DNA from: a virus
Reading direction: 5' to 3' (one strand)
Length of the DNA stretch: 29,463 nucleotides
IMG/VR virus record: IMGVR_UViG_3300044733_002581
Coordinates: 1-29,463 of that record
Part shown: in pieces, positions 1 to 11,377 of the stretch
Layout: each line of letters opens with the position of its first letter
How positions within the stretch are numbered: position 1 is the stretch's first letter
The notes under the pieces: model-generated
What the model saw: the letters and a program-made list of their open reading frames with translations, nothing else
What the model was told of the DNA's origin: nothing
Databases searched by the model: none
Made by a program: the position numbers and the translations under genes

Positions 1-529
1 CAACCTCATCAAGAAGTACCCAACGGCAAGGAGCAGAACGCAGGCCCGTAGCTGAGTTCGCCCCGGTAAGGAGGAGGATTCCACCTGGAAATTCTTTTGA
101 AAACATCGTGTTGCCTGAATCGCGGCTTCGAGCCGGAGCGACCTTCTCCGCCAGACACGGTGTCTCATGAATCAACGAGTCAAGACGTTGCTTGCTCAAT
201 CTTTTAGCCATCTCGATCGTCGGCTGCACAAAAAGTGCTGGGCCGGGCGCGTGGGCAATCATGTACCCAACGACGTTGTTGATCGCTTCTGTCTTGCCAA
301 GCTGCGCACCAGCCATGAACACCACCTTCTGCACAGGAGAGCTGGCGGACATGGAGTCCATGATTTCTTTCAGATACGGCGTCCGGTCTGTGCGCCAGGG
401 GCCAGGTTCAGCACTCGCCTTGTTGGACAACATCCTGTACATGTCGGCCCACTGACTTACGGTCAAGTCAGGATCAGGCTTCAGGCCGTCACGGAACGCA
501 TGCCTGTAGATCAGGGCACCATCACGCAT
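1..529 (-). CDS. terL: Terminase large subunit, GpA family (partial, runs off left edge)
   Basis: The first 176 codons are present, reading leftward out of the window. TerL is the packaging ATPase/nuclease that pumps DNA into the prohead. The visible part is the start of the ATPase domain: a Walker A-like GAQLGKTE at residues 74-81 and a Walker B-like VLLDEV at 171-176, right at the edge. The QLGKTE form and the spacing fit the lambda gpA family. The nuclease domain is off-window. The ATG at 529-527 is the only possible start, because an in-frame stop lies two codons upstream. It overlaps the end of terS by 8 nt, so translation is probably coupled. Established for the family: gpA-type terminases usually make cos ends. 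Confidence 0.93.
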   Translation of the reverse strand, partial: MRDGALIYRHAFRDGLKPDPDLTVSQWADMYRMLSNKASAEPGPWRTDRTPYLKEIMDSMSASSPVQKVVFMAGAQLGKTEAINNVVGYMIAHAPGPALFVQPTIEMAKRLSKQRLDSLIHETPCLAEKVAPARSRDSGNTMFSKEFPGGILLLTGANSATGLRSAPCRWVLLDEV

Positions 530-1004
530 CGGTCAAGGTCTCCAAAGCCCTGCGGATCTCGCTGGTCAACGTCTGGTGGATGACGACCGGGTCAGACTCA
601 GCAGCCAACTGATTGCTGACACGATCAGGAATATTCCCCAAAGCATCACGTACAGCACGAGCAGAAGTGAAAGCCTCACGCTGCACACGAGAAACCTCCA
701 CAAGCTGATCTTCTTTGACTTCGAGGTCCAGTCGAGCCAGTTCGGCACGGAAATGCTCAGACTTCGCACGGCTTTCATTAAAGGTCGGGATCTCAAGTTC
801 AGAGGATGTCTTACGCGTGGGACTCGTTGAGACAAGCGGGTTGCCCTCGGTGTACGCCTTGACCGCTGCTTCCTTGTCCCATTCGATCTTGTTGCGGACA
901 ACCATGAAGCAACCGTCGAAACGGCCCTGACTCTTCATTTGGCTGATGCGAGCCTGCGTGATGCCAAGCTCCTCGGCCAGCTCTTTGGTGTTACAGACAG
1001 TCAT
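522..1004 (-). CDS. terS: Terminase small subunit (Nu1-like)
   Basis: A 160-aa protein. Residues 5-25 (NTKELAEELGITQARISQMK) form a helix-turn-helix like the winged-helix DNA-binding region of Nu1-type small subunits. The rest is charged and helical, as expected for an oligomerisation and TerL-binding part. TerS recognises the packaging site and recruits TerL. Its end overlaps the terL start by 8 nt, which supports the call strongly. The ATG at 1004 is preceded by purine-poor sequence without a clear Shine-Dalgarno. The gene is the first of a leftward transcript, divergent from the small ORF at 1313. Confidence 0.85.
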   Translation of the reverse strand: MTVCNTKELAEELGITQARISQMKSQGRFDGCFMVVRNKIEWDKEAAVKAYTEGNPLVSTSPTRKTSSELEIPTFNESRAKSEHFRAELARLDLEVKEDQLVEVSRVQREAFTSARAVRDALGNIPDRVSNQLAAESDPVVIHQTLTSEIRRALETLTDA

Positions 1005-2381: not shown

Positions 2382-2540
2382 TCAGGCTCCCATAGCGAGG
2401 AGGACCGACAGAATGCCGACCATGGCCCACAAGACCAATTGGCGCTCCTCGAGGTCTGCGATGCGCTCGGCTTGTGAATCGATCAGCTCGCAGGAGGCAT
2501 CGATGATGTCCGCCTTTGTGCTGCGTTCGTTGACGTTCAT
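2382..2540 (-). CDS. Small membrane protein with coiled-coil N-terminus
   Basis: A 52-aa protein. Residues 1-33 are helical and charged (ELIDSQAERIADLEERQ) and residues 34-52 form one hydrophobic segment (LVLWAMVGILSVLLAMGA) at the very C-terminus, as in a tail-anchored protein. I chose the internal ATG at 2540: the upstream ATG at 2588 adds 16 residues in a different style, and neither has a clear Shine-Dalgarno. Function is unknown. A lysis-related or membrane-anchoring role is conceivable, but it lies far from the lysis genes. The repeat region lies directly upstream. Confidence 0.6.
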   Translation of the reverse strand: MNVNERSTKADIIDASCELIDSQAERIADLEERQLVLWAMVGILSVLLAMGA

Positions 2541-2673
2541 GTGTTCTAGGTGCGATTGGATAATTGGCGCGGAACCCGCGACCTGCACAAATCATAGGGC
2601 CGCACCCTGGGGGTAGGGATCGCCTGTAACTTTTTTTATCATAATTTCTTCTTATGTTTCAATATACAAAGTA

Positions 2674-2889
2674 GTACAAGTGACCCCTGGGAGGTTTGTA
2701 CTATAGGCCATGTGTACTGCAGTTCAGCCGTACTACTCAGCACTATTGAGATCGACTCTCAATTGCATTAGTGCCGTATGCGCATTGCCGCATAGTAGTG
2801 CATTTGTACCATAGTACGCTTGTACTGTAGTGCGTCTGTACTTGAGTACATTTGTACTGTAGTACATTTGAACCATAGTACATTTGCAC
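2674..2889. repeat. GTAC tetramer array in 8-bp register
   Basis: From 2798 to 2889 twelve tetramers start exactly every 8 bp. Eight are GTAC (2806, 2814, 2822, 2838, 2846, 2854, 2862, 2878); the others are GTGC (2798, 2830), GAAC (2870) and GCAC (2886). The 4-nt spacers alternate between ATTT-like and TGTA/CATA-like, giving a 16-bp unit. A degenerate block upstream has GTAC at 2674, 2698, 2714 and 2730, again at multiples of 8, shifted by 4 bp from the main block. No gene is convincing here. It could be a multimeric protein-binding site, an origin element or a control region for the genes starting at 2540 and below. Confidence 0.8.
2745..2763. repeat. Inverted repeat between the two GTAC blocks
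   Basis: ATTGAGA-TCGAC-TCTCAAT: perfect 7-bp arms around 5 nt. It sits between the degenerate and regular parts of the GTAC array, close to the 4-bp phase shift. Its arms contain the hexamer TTGAGA/TCTCAA, also part of the dyad at 9649-9671, though here the arms are in the opposite order. Confidence 0.45.
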
Positions 2890-3012
2890 CTAAACCAGGG
2901 TCGCTCCGGTACAAAAATCGCCTTAAACCGACCCCTTGCAAGAACTTCGAAGTTTTCTTAAACCGACCCCTCGCAAGAACTGAGCACCTTAAACCGACCT
3001 GCCGCAAGAACT
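2889..3012. repeat. Four 25-bp iteron-like direct repeats
   Basis: Three clear copies of CTTAAACCGACC followed by a 4-nt variable part and GCAAGAACT start at 2922, 2957 and 2988. A degenerate copy starts at 2889 (CCTAAACC). Spacing is 33, 35 and 31 bp, so gaps between copies are 6-10 bp. A perfect 12-bp palindrome, AACTTCGAAGTT (2943-2954), overlaps the end of one copy. The block begins where the GTAC array ends and touches the stop of the gpZ-like gene. The gaps are too short for a CRISPR array. Iterons of an origin or binding sites of a regulator are the better guesses. Confidence 0.75.
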
Positions 3013-3810
3013 TCAACGCAAAACGATTCGTGAAAAGTTTTTTGCAAATTCACGCTCAACGCTCGATCGTGCGATGTCGAGGAACTTGAACTTACCGCTG
3101 TAAGTCGGGAGGGCCGTCTCAGTCATGACGCGGTAGTAACGCAGCCCTGAGCGCTGACGATCAACAAAGTAAATACCAGGCTTGGGTGAGTTGGTGAAAC
3201 GACGCCTGAAGTACGGCTCGTAGATCTCCTCCTCGTCCAGATAGATGTATTTGCTCAAGCTTTTAGGGTTCAGGGATGCTTCACCTGTTCCGGGGCGTCC
3301 GTAGATGTCAGCAGAACTGACGTTACCGCGCAGTGCCGAAAGAATCTGCGTGTACTGACCAGGACTCATGTTCCCGTACTGATTCACACGTGTCTTGGGG
3401 CTTCTCAGGTTGGCGAGCATGACCTTGCCGCGTTGACCGACCTGTGATGAGCGCCCATTTGACAGCTCCACAACGGTGTTTAACAGGGCACCCTGGAATC
3501 GTGTGGGGTAATACTTGCCACCGTAGATCTGTGGGAGTAGGTATTTGGCGGGTGGGTTGCCTTTAGGTGCCTCATCACGAATGAAGATCTTGGCTTCGAG
3601 CAGCTCAGGCGATGCTTTCCTGTACAGGAATGCGTTCTGGGTGAACGGGACGGGATTGTTGAACGTGTTCTTGGCTTGTGATTTCAGCTCTTGCGTCGTT
3701 GCAAAGACAGCTTGATTGAGCGCCAATGCGCCTGCACGTGGGATCTGAATGCGCTGCAGTTCAGTGATCTTCCCGATGATGTTTTTGGGGTCGAATTCGA
3801 TCGTGATCAT
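3013..3810 (-). CDS. Putative tail/head-tail joining protein, gpZ-like
   Basis: A 265-aa protein. Residues 20-100 have the pattern I associate with the prophage minor tail protein Z family: an Ala-rich helix (RAGALALNQAVFATTQELKS), then FNNPVPFTQNAF, then an Arg/Lys-rich strand, DEAPKGNPPAKYL and QIYGGK. Such proteins act in tail completion or head-tail joining. The ATG at 3810 is chosen because AGGAGG sits 6 nt before it; an upstream ATG at 3843 lies inside the terminator. It is odd that a virion gene stands alone here, between the recombination operon and the repeat region, with a terminator upstream and no clear promoter. The family call is from motif memory and could be wrong. Confidence 0.6.
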   Translation of the reverse strand: MITIEFDPKNIIGKITELQRIQIPRAGALALNQAVFATTQELKSQAKNTFNNPVPFTQNAFLYRKASPELLEAKIFIRDEAPKGNPPAKYLLPQIYGGKYYPTRFQGALLNTVVELSNGRSSQVGQRGKVMLANLRSPKTRVNQYGNMSPGQYTQILSALRGNVSSADIYGRPGTGEASLNPKSLSKYIYLDEEEIYEPYFRRRFTNSPKPGIYFVDRQRSGLRYYRVMTETALPTYSGKFKFLDIARSSVEREFAKNFSRIVLR

Positions 3811-3833
3811 GCTGCCTCCTTTTGACACAGCAT

Positions 3834-3873
3834 AAAAAAACACCCCGGTGAAGCCAATGCCTCAAGTCCGGGG
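3834..3873 (-). terminator. Intrinsic terminator after rusA
   Basis: On the minus strand: CCCCGG, a 19-nt loop, CCGGGG, then TG and seven T residues. It lies 19 nt after the rusA stop and closes the leftward recombination operon. The T tract ends just before the gpZ-like gene's Shine-Dalgarno, so that gene needs read-through or an unseen promoter. Confidence 0.7.
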
Positions 3874-3891: not shown

Positions 3892-4341
3892 TCATACCAC
3901 ATCACAAGGGGCCTCGTGCTCAAGGTCCATGACTGTGATCATGACGCCAGGGGGTTCCTGCGCGACGCAGAAGCGTTTCTGTGCTGTGAGCAGAAAGCAC
4001 TGAGCATCATCCTGGATAACCCTTGCGAGAGTGAGGCTGTCGAGGATTGCACGAGCAAGTTTGTCGATGTCAGGCTTGCTGGTCTTGTACTGCGGGGCAT
4101 TGGACTTGAGTTGCCCTTTGCTGTTGTAGTGCGATTTGGGGCGCTGAAAGCGAAACACGAGGGAGATGCTGACAGGGCCATGGATCGTTGAGATTGACAG
4201 GGACAAGGCATCGGCAATGCACTGCTCACGCCAAGGTTTCAGGGCCTTGCAGGACTCGATCAGGCGCCCGTTGCCAACGTGTCGTTTGCTGCCTTGAGGA
4301 GCAGGGATGCCGATCGTGTTCCAAGAGAACGTCTTGTTCAT
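3892..4341 (-). CDS. rusA: RusA-family Holliday junction resolvase
   Basis: A 149-aa protein, slightly longer than E. coli RusA (about 120 aa). It cuts four-way DNA junctions during phage recombination and clears branched DNA before packaging. Visible family features: GIPAPQGSKRH near residues 11-21, PWREQ at 36-40, FRFQRPKSHY at 63-72, and the core KPDIDKLARAILDSL at 89-103 followed by IQDDAQ at 109-114. D91, D93 and one of D111/D112 match the acidic metal-binding residues of the family, and K94 the catalytic lysine region. It is the last gene of the leftward operon, overlapping the preceding gene's stop by 4 nt. Confidence 0.93.
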   Translation of the reverse strand: MNKTFSWNTIGIPAPQGSKRHVGNGRLIESCKALKPWREQCIADALSLSISTIHGPVSISLVFRFQRPKSHYNSKGQLKSNAPQYKTSKPDIDKLARAILDSLTLARVIQDDAQCFLLTAQKRFCVAQEPPGVMITVMDLEHEAPCDVV

Positions 4342-4538
4342 TCAGTTTTGAGCTTGAGGCGTGTTTTGCCGTTGACTCTTTGCCAATAGTATTCGCTGCG
4401 TTGCAGGATGTATTCGTGCGTGTAGATGCTGGTGCCGCAGTCTGTGCACTTGATGTGACGAAGTGTGAAGTCAGGACTGGGGTAGGTTTTGATAACTCGC
4501 AGGTTATCGCCGCCGCAGGAGGAGCAGGCGTGTTTCAT
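4338..4538 (-). CDS. Small NrdR-like zinc-ribbon protein
   Basis: A 66-aa protein with C-x2-C near residues 5-8 (CSSCGG) and C-x2-C near 31-34 (CTDCG), the latter in the context RHIKCTDCGTSIYTHEYI. This resembles the N-terminal zinc ribbon of NrdR, where R-x-R-x-C-x2-C-x6-TYE is typical. There is no ATP-cone domain, so it is not a full NrdR. A DNA- or protein-binding role is likely. The start at 4538 makes an ATGA overlap with the upstream gene; an ATG 21 nt further upstream is less likely. It shares its fold pattern with its upstream neighbour, so the two may be paralogues. Confidence 0.7.
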   Translation of the reverse strand: MKHACSSCGGDNLRVIKTYPSPDFTLRHIKCTDCGTSIYTHEYILQRSEYYWQRVNGKTRLKLKTE

Positions 4539-4864
4539 GCTTTGTAGTAGTAAGAACATTCAGAGGCGAAGGAGCCGCCAGCTTCAGGGATGTCTAGGGA
4601 GCAGTGATCGTTCTCCCATTGCGTGCAGTTGTGACAATCAAAGACGTTGCCCTCACTGAACAGATGCGTACGCAGGAAGTCGAGCTTCTGTTGCAGCACC
4701 TTGTACTTGTCGAGCGTTTCTTGCGTGACTTCGTACGTTGTCCAACTGTGTTTACAGGCAATGCAACGACGCCTGATGCGCTTTGCTTGATTGTTGAACG
4801 TCAGGTGTGACTCGATCACGTTGATCTTTGTCGCGTGGCATTCAGGGCATGTACGACCGCTCAT
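4535..4864 (-). CDS. NrdR-like zinc-ribbon protein with extra cysteine cluster
   Basis: A 109-aa protein. Residues 6-45 form an NrdR-type zinc ribbon: CPEC, then RIRRRCIACKHSWTTYEV, very close to the NrdR signature. A helix follows (ETLDKYKVLQQKLDFLRTHLF). A second cysteine group, CHNC near 77-80 plus C near 88 and 103, could bind another metal. The ATP-cone of true NrdR is missing. It may be a small transcription regulator or a nucleic-acid-binding accessory protein. It overlaps both neighbours by 4 nt (ATGA), inside the operon that ends with rusA. Confidence 0.75.
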   Translation of the reverse strand: MSGRTCPECHATKINVIESHLTFNNQAKRIRRRCIACKHSWTTYEVTQETLDKYKVLQQKLDFLRTHLFSEGNVFDCHNCTQWENDHCSLDIPEAGGSFASECSYYYKA

Positions 4865-10834: not shown

Positions 10835-11129
10835 TTCAACTGCGTTCAACGCCAAATTCCGCATTGTCGAGAATCGCAATCGCAAAAGCGACAAATCGCC
10901 TGAGCAGAACATCATCGTTGATTTCACCGCCAAGGAAGCCGTACAGGCCGCCAACTATCTGATGACGATGGCCGAGGCTGCAGAGGTCAACAACAAGACC
11001 GTGCGCATCTACACCGGCAAGGACACCTTCACCGAAGAAGTTGGCTTCAGCCTTTGGGGTGGTCTCTGGGGTAACAAGGGATCGTTCAGCCCACTCAAGC
11101 CTGACAGCGTCAACGACCCCATCTTCTGA
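10827..11129 (+). CDS. Hypothetical protein in early operon
   Basis: A 100-aa protein starting MSNSTAFNAKFRIVENRN. The middle (VDFTAKEAVQAANYLMTMAEAAE, roughly residues 30-52) is helical and the end is Gly/Trp-rich (SLWGGLWGNKGSF). A longer reading from 10698 would cover the RHH gene and is rejected. The 8-nt overlap upstream and the TGATG overlap downstream support this start. No family is recognised. A ssDNA- or recombination-related role would fit the neighbours but is not shown. Confidence 0.65.
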   Translation: MSNSTAFNAKFRIVENRNRKSDKSPEQNIIVDFTAKEAVQAANYLMTMAEAAEVNNKTVRIYTGKDTFTEEVGFSLWGGLWGNKGSFSPLKPDSVNDPIF

Positions 11130-11377
11130 TGACAATCGACGCCCTTTCGCCTGACGATGCACCGCAAACAGGCCCCGGTATTTCCTATTGCATTGCAAAC
11201 CACGCACGGATGTTTGACTTTGAATTACGCATTCCTGGCCAGCGCCCCCTCCGTGGTTGTATTCGTGCTGTTGATCAAAAGGATGCAGAACGTATCTTGT
11301 TCAATCGGCATCCACAAGCCAGCAGCATTGACATCGGCAAAGGGCGTTCGATTATTCCTTCAGCAAAGAAGACTTGA
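11129..11377 (+). CDS. Hypothetical protein
   Basis: An 82-aa protein with no recognised family. A beta-rich centre (FDFELRIPGQRPLRGCIRAVD) is followed by a helix (QKDAERILFNRHP) and a basic tail (IGKGRSIIPSAKKT). That strand-helix arrangement resembles small proteins with a WGR- or Ada-type half-domain only vaguely. It begins in a TGATG overlap, so it is translated with the early operon. Confidence 0.6.
   Translation: MTIDALSPDDAPQTGPGISYCIANHARMFDFELRIPGQRPLRGCIRAVDQKDAERILFNRHPQASSIDIGKGRSIIPSAKKT

Follow-up and report, generated by a model that had tools for sequence, protein, structure and literature searches.

What binds a row of regularly spaced GTAC tetramers in a virus genome, and what might it control? 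The row lies in a 29.5-kb virus record (IMGVR_UViG_3300044733_002581), whose full 29,463 nucleotides were analyzed and are called the window here. The window contains lambda-type tail genes, a RusA resolvase, an exonuclease, and terminase genes, and its terminase small subunit is a distant relative of those in Synechococcus phages S-CBS1 and S-CBS3. The preliminary description had reported twelve GTAC-like tetramers at exact 8-bp steps, and this was reproduced: twelve tetramers with at most one mismatch from GTAC are chained from position 2798, whereas the longest 8-bp chain in 200 dinucleotide shuffles had a mean of 2.9 and a maximum of 4. Five exact GTAC pairs at spacing 8 were found in the window versus a shuffle mean of 0.07; the equal periodicity in shuffled controls that had been named as refuting the array was not seen. 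The 4-bp shift of a degenerate block from the 8-bp register was also recovered (108 bp separates the degenerate and main blocks), and the helix geometry is right, 32 bp being about three turns. The overlapping ORFs are short and unsupported, with no convincing gene there, in agreement with the view of the array as non-coding and similar to protein-binding sites.

The tetramer itself was not supported as the functional unit. Tandem Repeats Finder returned a period of 16 with 5.7 copies of the unit TAGTACATTTGTACTA (2796-2886), and a repeat search gave a start-to-start distance of 16 between the array copies. The array consists of six head-to-tail copies of the 14-bp dyad AGTAC-ATTT-GTACT, one every 16 bp (2797-2890), and the GTAC spacers alternate because the true repeat is 16 bp long. 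Ten of ten positions of the dyad AGTAC-N4-GTACT are kept in two boxes and 8-9 of 10 in the other four. The contiguous palindromic 16-bp units exclude a CRISPR array or iterons, as had been noted from the letters; repeats similar to plasmid and phage iterons do adjoin the array, which is itself a different kind of repeat. An NtcA box (GTA-N8-TAC) was rejected since the array dyad, GTA-N6-TAC, has the wrong spacer, and no known RNA element was matched in Rfam between 900 and 4000.

The array is positioned at the border between the early genes and the leftward packaging-late operon. The features of the region are listed below, with scores from the host LexA matrix introduced after the list.

2..529, minus strand: terminase large subunit, truncated at the edge of the window (phrog_15, E 5.5e-79)
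522..1004, minus strand: terminase small subunit, downstream in the same direction (phrog_57, E 4.3e-28)
2382..2540, minus strand: small membrane protein ORF, 52 aa, first gene of the leftward operon downstream of the array; 98% identical in L003
2534..2547, plus strand: weak LexA-type box spanning the small membrane gene's start codon (matrix 8.2); the L003 copy is better, CGTTCATTTGTACT
2673..2734, plus strand: degenerate block of up to four LexA-type boxes (starts 2673, 2689, 2705, 2721; 16-bp repeat family)
2747..2761, no strand assigned: degenerate Fur/Zur-type palindrome, 11/14 positions of TGAGAATNATTCTCA; relatives carry good ones here
2797..2810, plus strand: LexA-type box 1, AGTGCATTTGTACC; matrix 16.6, the window's third best
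2813..2826, plus strand: LexA-type box 2, AGTACGCTTGTACT; dyad 10/10 positions; matrix 15.4
2829..2842, plus strand: LexA-type box 3, AGTGCGTCTGTACT; dyad 9/10 positions; matrix 10.3
2845..2858, plus strand: LexA-type box 4, AGTACATTTGTACT; fully matches the published consensus; matrix 22.5, the window's best
2861..2874, plus strand: LexA-type box 5, AGTACATTTGAACC; matrix 16.0
2877..2890, plus strand: LexA-type box 6, AGTACATTTGCACC; matrix 16.7
2921..3014, plus strand: three iterons TTAAACCGACC-N4-GCAAGAACTT (starts 2921, 2956, 2987; from repeat search and Tandem Repeats Finder), conserved in relatives
3013..3843, minus strand: minor tail protein gene, ending at the iterons (phrog_1924, E 4.7e-41)

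The 14-bp core of the array unit matches the published cyanobacterial LexA box, which has the consensus AGTACWNWTGTACT and, in Nostoc, the form RGTACNNNDGTWCB (PMC3091678). A matrix was built from 23 sites in the lexA, recA, and umuD operators of presumed hosts. Five array copies were the five best sites of the whole window, with 22.5 for the top site versus a best score of 15.7 in 50 shuffles. Three boxes of the degenerate block scored 8.3, 8.6, and 5.0, and its boxes at 2705 and 2721 are weaker than those at 2673 and 2689.

The 11 host genomes are small and cyanobacterial, and their size and LexA and UmuD content suggest picocyanobacteria. In 11 of 11, a box GGTACANATGTATT ([AG]GTACANATGTATT) precedes lexA by about 50 bp; roughly half of these promoters have a second box at exactly +16 bp (e.g., GGTACAAATGTATTAGAGTACATTTGTTTT), and two degenerate boxes, likewise at 16-bp spacing, precede lexA of a Lake Pavin MAG. 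The recA genes carry AGTACACATGTACT or AGTACGCATGTACT about 99 bp upstream, and LexA-type boxes are present at umuD and dprA too. The strict box is rare, occurring at 1-4 places per picocyanobacterial genome, and is overall commoner than the reversed control. In marine Synechococcus, lexA, recA, and umuC are induced by mitomycin C (PMC3744912). The phage array and the host lexA operator share the same 14-bp dyad and the same 16-bp tandem spacing; they differ in that the former has six contiguous copies in a phage genome and the latter one or two boxes. The six copies represent one evolutionary event rather than independent support, so the independent support comes from the consensus match, the tandem spacing, and the recurrence in other phages. 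Host LexA is a probable binder of the array boxes, judging from sequence, and the filament-forming, RHH, or zinc-ribbon binder suggested earlier was not supported, as the dyad fits the LexA operator of the presumed hosts both in sequence and in tandem spacing.

Viral contigs were scanned for two boxes in tandem with any gap of 0-28, which yielded at least 118 loci, and those listed were examined. A period of 16 was observed in 38 of the 118 listed loci and any other period in at most 14. Among the listed loci are T7-like phages, in which the large terminase shares 89% identity with its counterpart in Prochlorococcus phage P-SSP6, phages encoding a protein related to the minor tail protein of the window, and a 55-75 kb group of putative cyanophages. 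No psbA-type photosynthesis gene was found in 41 viral-contig records checked for signs of a cyanobacterial host, and a BLAST search for the array in cultured phages gave no real match. Isolate S-CBP42, annotated with an integrase, has three LexA-type boxes directly upstream of its RNA polymerase gene (L241 27504-27568); none were found there in seven other isolate podoviruses, so this case is sporadic. In the CRISPR array of a Lake Pavin cyanobacterial MAG (L029, L230), 2 of 101 spacers, TTTGTACCGTAGTACGTTTGTACCGTAGTACGTATGA and GGCTAGTACATTTGTACCGTAGTGCATTTGACGCACTGCGAC, match GTAC arrays in many phage loci, which ties the arrays to cyanobacterial hosts independently. Rows of LexA-type sites, often mixed with metal-repressor sites, recur in many cyanobacterial viruses.

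The box content at this place varies from 0 to 6 GTAC units among related phages. Near-identical phages have six units at the same site (the window and L002), two (L003), or two plus two (L004, L011, and L019), and the difference between the six units of the window and the two of L003 is exactly 64 bp. In the more distant L005-L007, L023, L024, and L027, at most one GTAC box occurs, alongside several boxes TTGAGAATGATTCTCATTWTCA. These Fur-type boxes agree in up to 15 of 16 fixed positions with the cyanobacterial Zur box of WH8102, NTNANAATGATNATCATTNTNAN (PMC9337993). Relatives carry arrays of 2-4 such boxes, and the window one degenerate copy. In one host genome, the same Fur-type box precedes a gene for a COG0523 metallochaperone GTPase, a typical Zur target. 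A second Fur/Zur-type trio with an exact 29-bp spacing is located about 200-300 bp upstream of terS in L006 (3761-3841), L007 (9143-9223), and L070 (18780-18860). Iterons adjoin the boxes in every one of these relatives. L135 and L159 have, in order, iterons, four GTAC boxes, one Fur-type, two GTAC, three Fur-type, and then TTGACCTTATATATGG, with Fur-type boxes just upstream of a conserved promoter-like TTATATATGG. No array was present in S-CBS1, S-CBS3, or the terminase region of P-SSP6.

In many relatives, the boxes are followed directly by a gene for a protein of 60-75 aa that begins with a hydrophobic segment and has an HTH in its C-terminal part; in the window lineage, the small membrane protein (2382-2540) replaces it. 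Members of this membrane-HTH family are found, for example, in L063 (13018-13200), A1, and L280-L322. The family was fetched from viral contigs blind to the boxes, giving 43 loci, some of them closely related and hence not 43 independent cases, of which 41 had usable upstream DNA. The 900 bp upstream of the gene contained 58 GTAC and 60 Fur-type boxes, versus 0.99 and 0.09 in shuffles, and the 900 bp downstream at the same loci contained none of either kind. At least one kind of box was present at 30 loci, and successive GTAC boxes were again mostly 16 bp apart.

The fixed position of the boxes favors control in cis of the adjacent leftward operon by host LexA. We tentatively read the array as a multi-copy operator of this kind, to which Zur/Fur control was added in relatives, and give this account somewhat less than an even chance. 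LexA dimers would occupy successive 14-bp dyads 16 bp apart, as on the tandem lexA operator of the host; since 16 bp is 1.5 turns, neighboring dimers would lie on alternate faces of the helix and every second dimer on the same face. Intact LexA coating the region would keep leftward transcription low, and with it expression of the small membrane protein and the late genes, and phage replication or sunlight damage would activate RecA, with LexA self-cleavage and release of the operon to follow. In relatives, the Fur/Zur-type boxes of the same region, some adjoining TTATATATGG, may combine several host stress repressors. Parts of the arrangement are odd for simple repression, as some 260-350 bp separate the best-kept boxes from the nearest start codon downstream, and the block closer to it is degenerate. 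A search for a sigma-70-type promoter between 2200 and 3100 found none. Close relatives swap most copies for Fur-type boxes and S-CBS1 and S-CBS3 have none, so LexA control would not be essential.

Six near-contiguous copies also exceed the need of one promoter, which counts against simple control in cis, and the excess and variable copy number favor titration of host LexA (in relatives, of Zur/Fur too) with no nearby promoter to control. Sites added by replicating genomes would derepress recA, umuDC, and other SOS genes without DNA damage, aiding phage replication and repair. Whole-unit differences between near-identical phages are consistent with this, as are the interchange of boxes for two unrelated host repressors at the same place, the up to 13 boxes of L155, and the fact that one phage genome can equal the 1-4 strict sites of a picocyanobacterial host. 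However, titration needs no particular place, and the boxes have a fixed one, on the upstream side of the small membrane gene in every case and on the downstream side in none; this account is rated as rather improbable. Cis control and titration can both be true together. A broader version, in which host LexA and Zur/Fur operator arrays form an exchangeable stress-sensor island between the iterons and the membrane-anchored HTH gene, set the timing of late transcription, and also sequester host global repressors as copies of the phage genome accumulate, appears unlikely.

It is unlikely in our view that the GTAC boxes belong to a regulator made by the phage itself, such as a CI-like repressor, the membrane-HTH protein, or a zinc-ribbon protein, with the likeness to LexA sites due to convergence. 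Tandem palindromic operators are typical of phage repressors, many relatives have the membrane-HTH gene directly after the boxes, and the window phage encodes an NrdR-like zinc ribbon; against this, the window lineage has a long array without the membrane-HTH gene, and the same box with 16-bp tandem spacing is shared by unrelated phages and host SOS genes. A phage-encoded LexA was rejected, as no LexA-family protein was detected in 13 viral records searched. The three 28-bp iterons of the window, spaced 31-35 bp apart at the end of the minor tail gene, would fit a replication origin or a packaging/partition site, in which an initiator or terminase would bind the iterons, and the GTAC dyads would either be bound by an accessory protein or fold into cruciforms. 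Three to four iterons adjoin the array region across phages of differing box content, and the region is upstream of the terminase genes. The array RNA folds well (z -3.9), which is no special sign because any run of palindromes should fold. The match to host LexA operators would be left unexplained, and iterons occur without any GTAC box in L281, L282, and L285, so iterons and array are separable; an origin or packaging role for the region is rated as quite unlikely.

Control of phage genes by host LexA is already known in a few temperate phages. The P1 promoter of Bacillus phage GIL01, for instance, is under repression by host LexA, which acts there through several SOS boxes (PMC4551915, PMC6182141). 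GIL01 and the window array are alike in having several host LexA-type sites in a phage control region. GIL01 is temperate and uses the cofactor gp7, whereas no cofactor or integrase was recognized in the window, and unlike GIL01, the array has 16-bp phased boxes, with Fur/Zur-type boxes added in relatives. Neither an integrase nor a repressor was recognized among the window proteins searched or, in a partial search, in the ORF list of a 39-kb relative (G003). The literature searched contained no report in cyanophages of long phased arrays of LexA sites, of combined LexA and Zur/Fur sites, or of such arrays associated with iterons and a membrane-HTH gene. The control DNA of these viruses appears to be wired to the stress alarms of the host; if this is so, sunlight damage and metal status would bear directly on the infection of abundant photosynthetic bacteria. 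The array, already targeted by a cyanobacterial CRISPR array, is a sequence signature for finding such phages.

Several minor observations were made in the window and its relatives. The NrdR-like zinc-ribbon protein (Pfam PF22811; window 4535-4864) is encoded in the early operon with an adjacent small cysteine-pair protein (4338-4559). The iteron core ACTTGCAAGGGGTCGGTT was absent from the host genomes searched and is also found in the otherwise unrelated phages L017, L018, and L020. A palindromic repeat AAACAGTGCTGTTT adjoins the GTAC array in several copies in L015, L018, L020, and L178. The region of cyanophage L020 is closely matched by L030, a contig of a gammaproteobacterial MAG, which is probably a misbinned phage contig. 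L219 has a second 16-bp array, TAGTACATTTGTTCGC in four copies (11076-11140), next to the usual one; just one of its half-sites is perfect. The longest array seen, in L155 (570-850), has 13 boxes, eight or nine of them consecutive at 16 bp.
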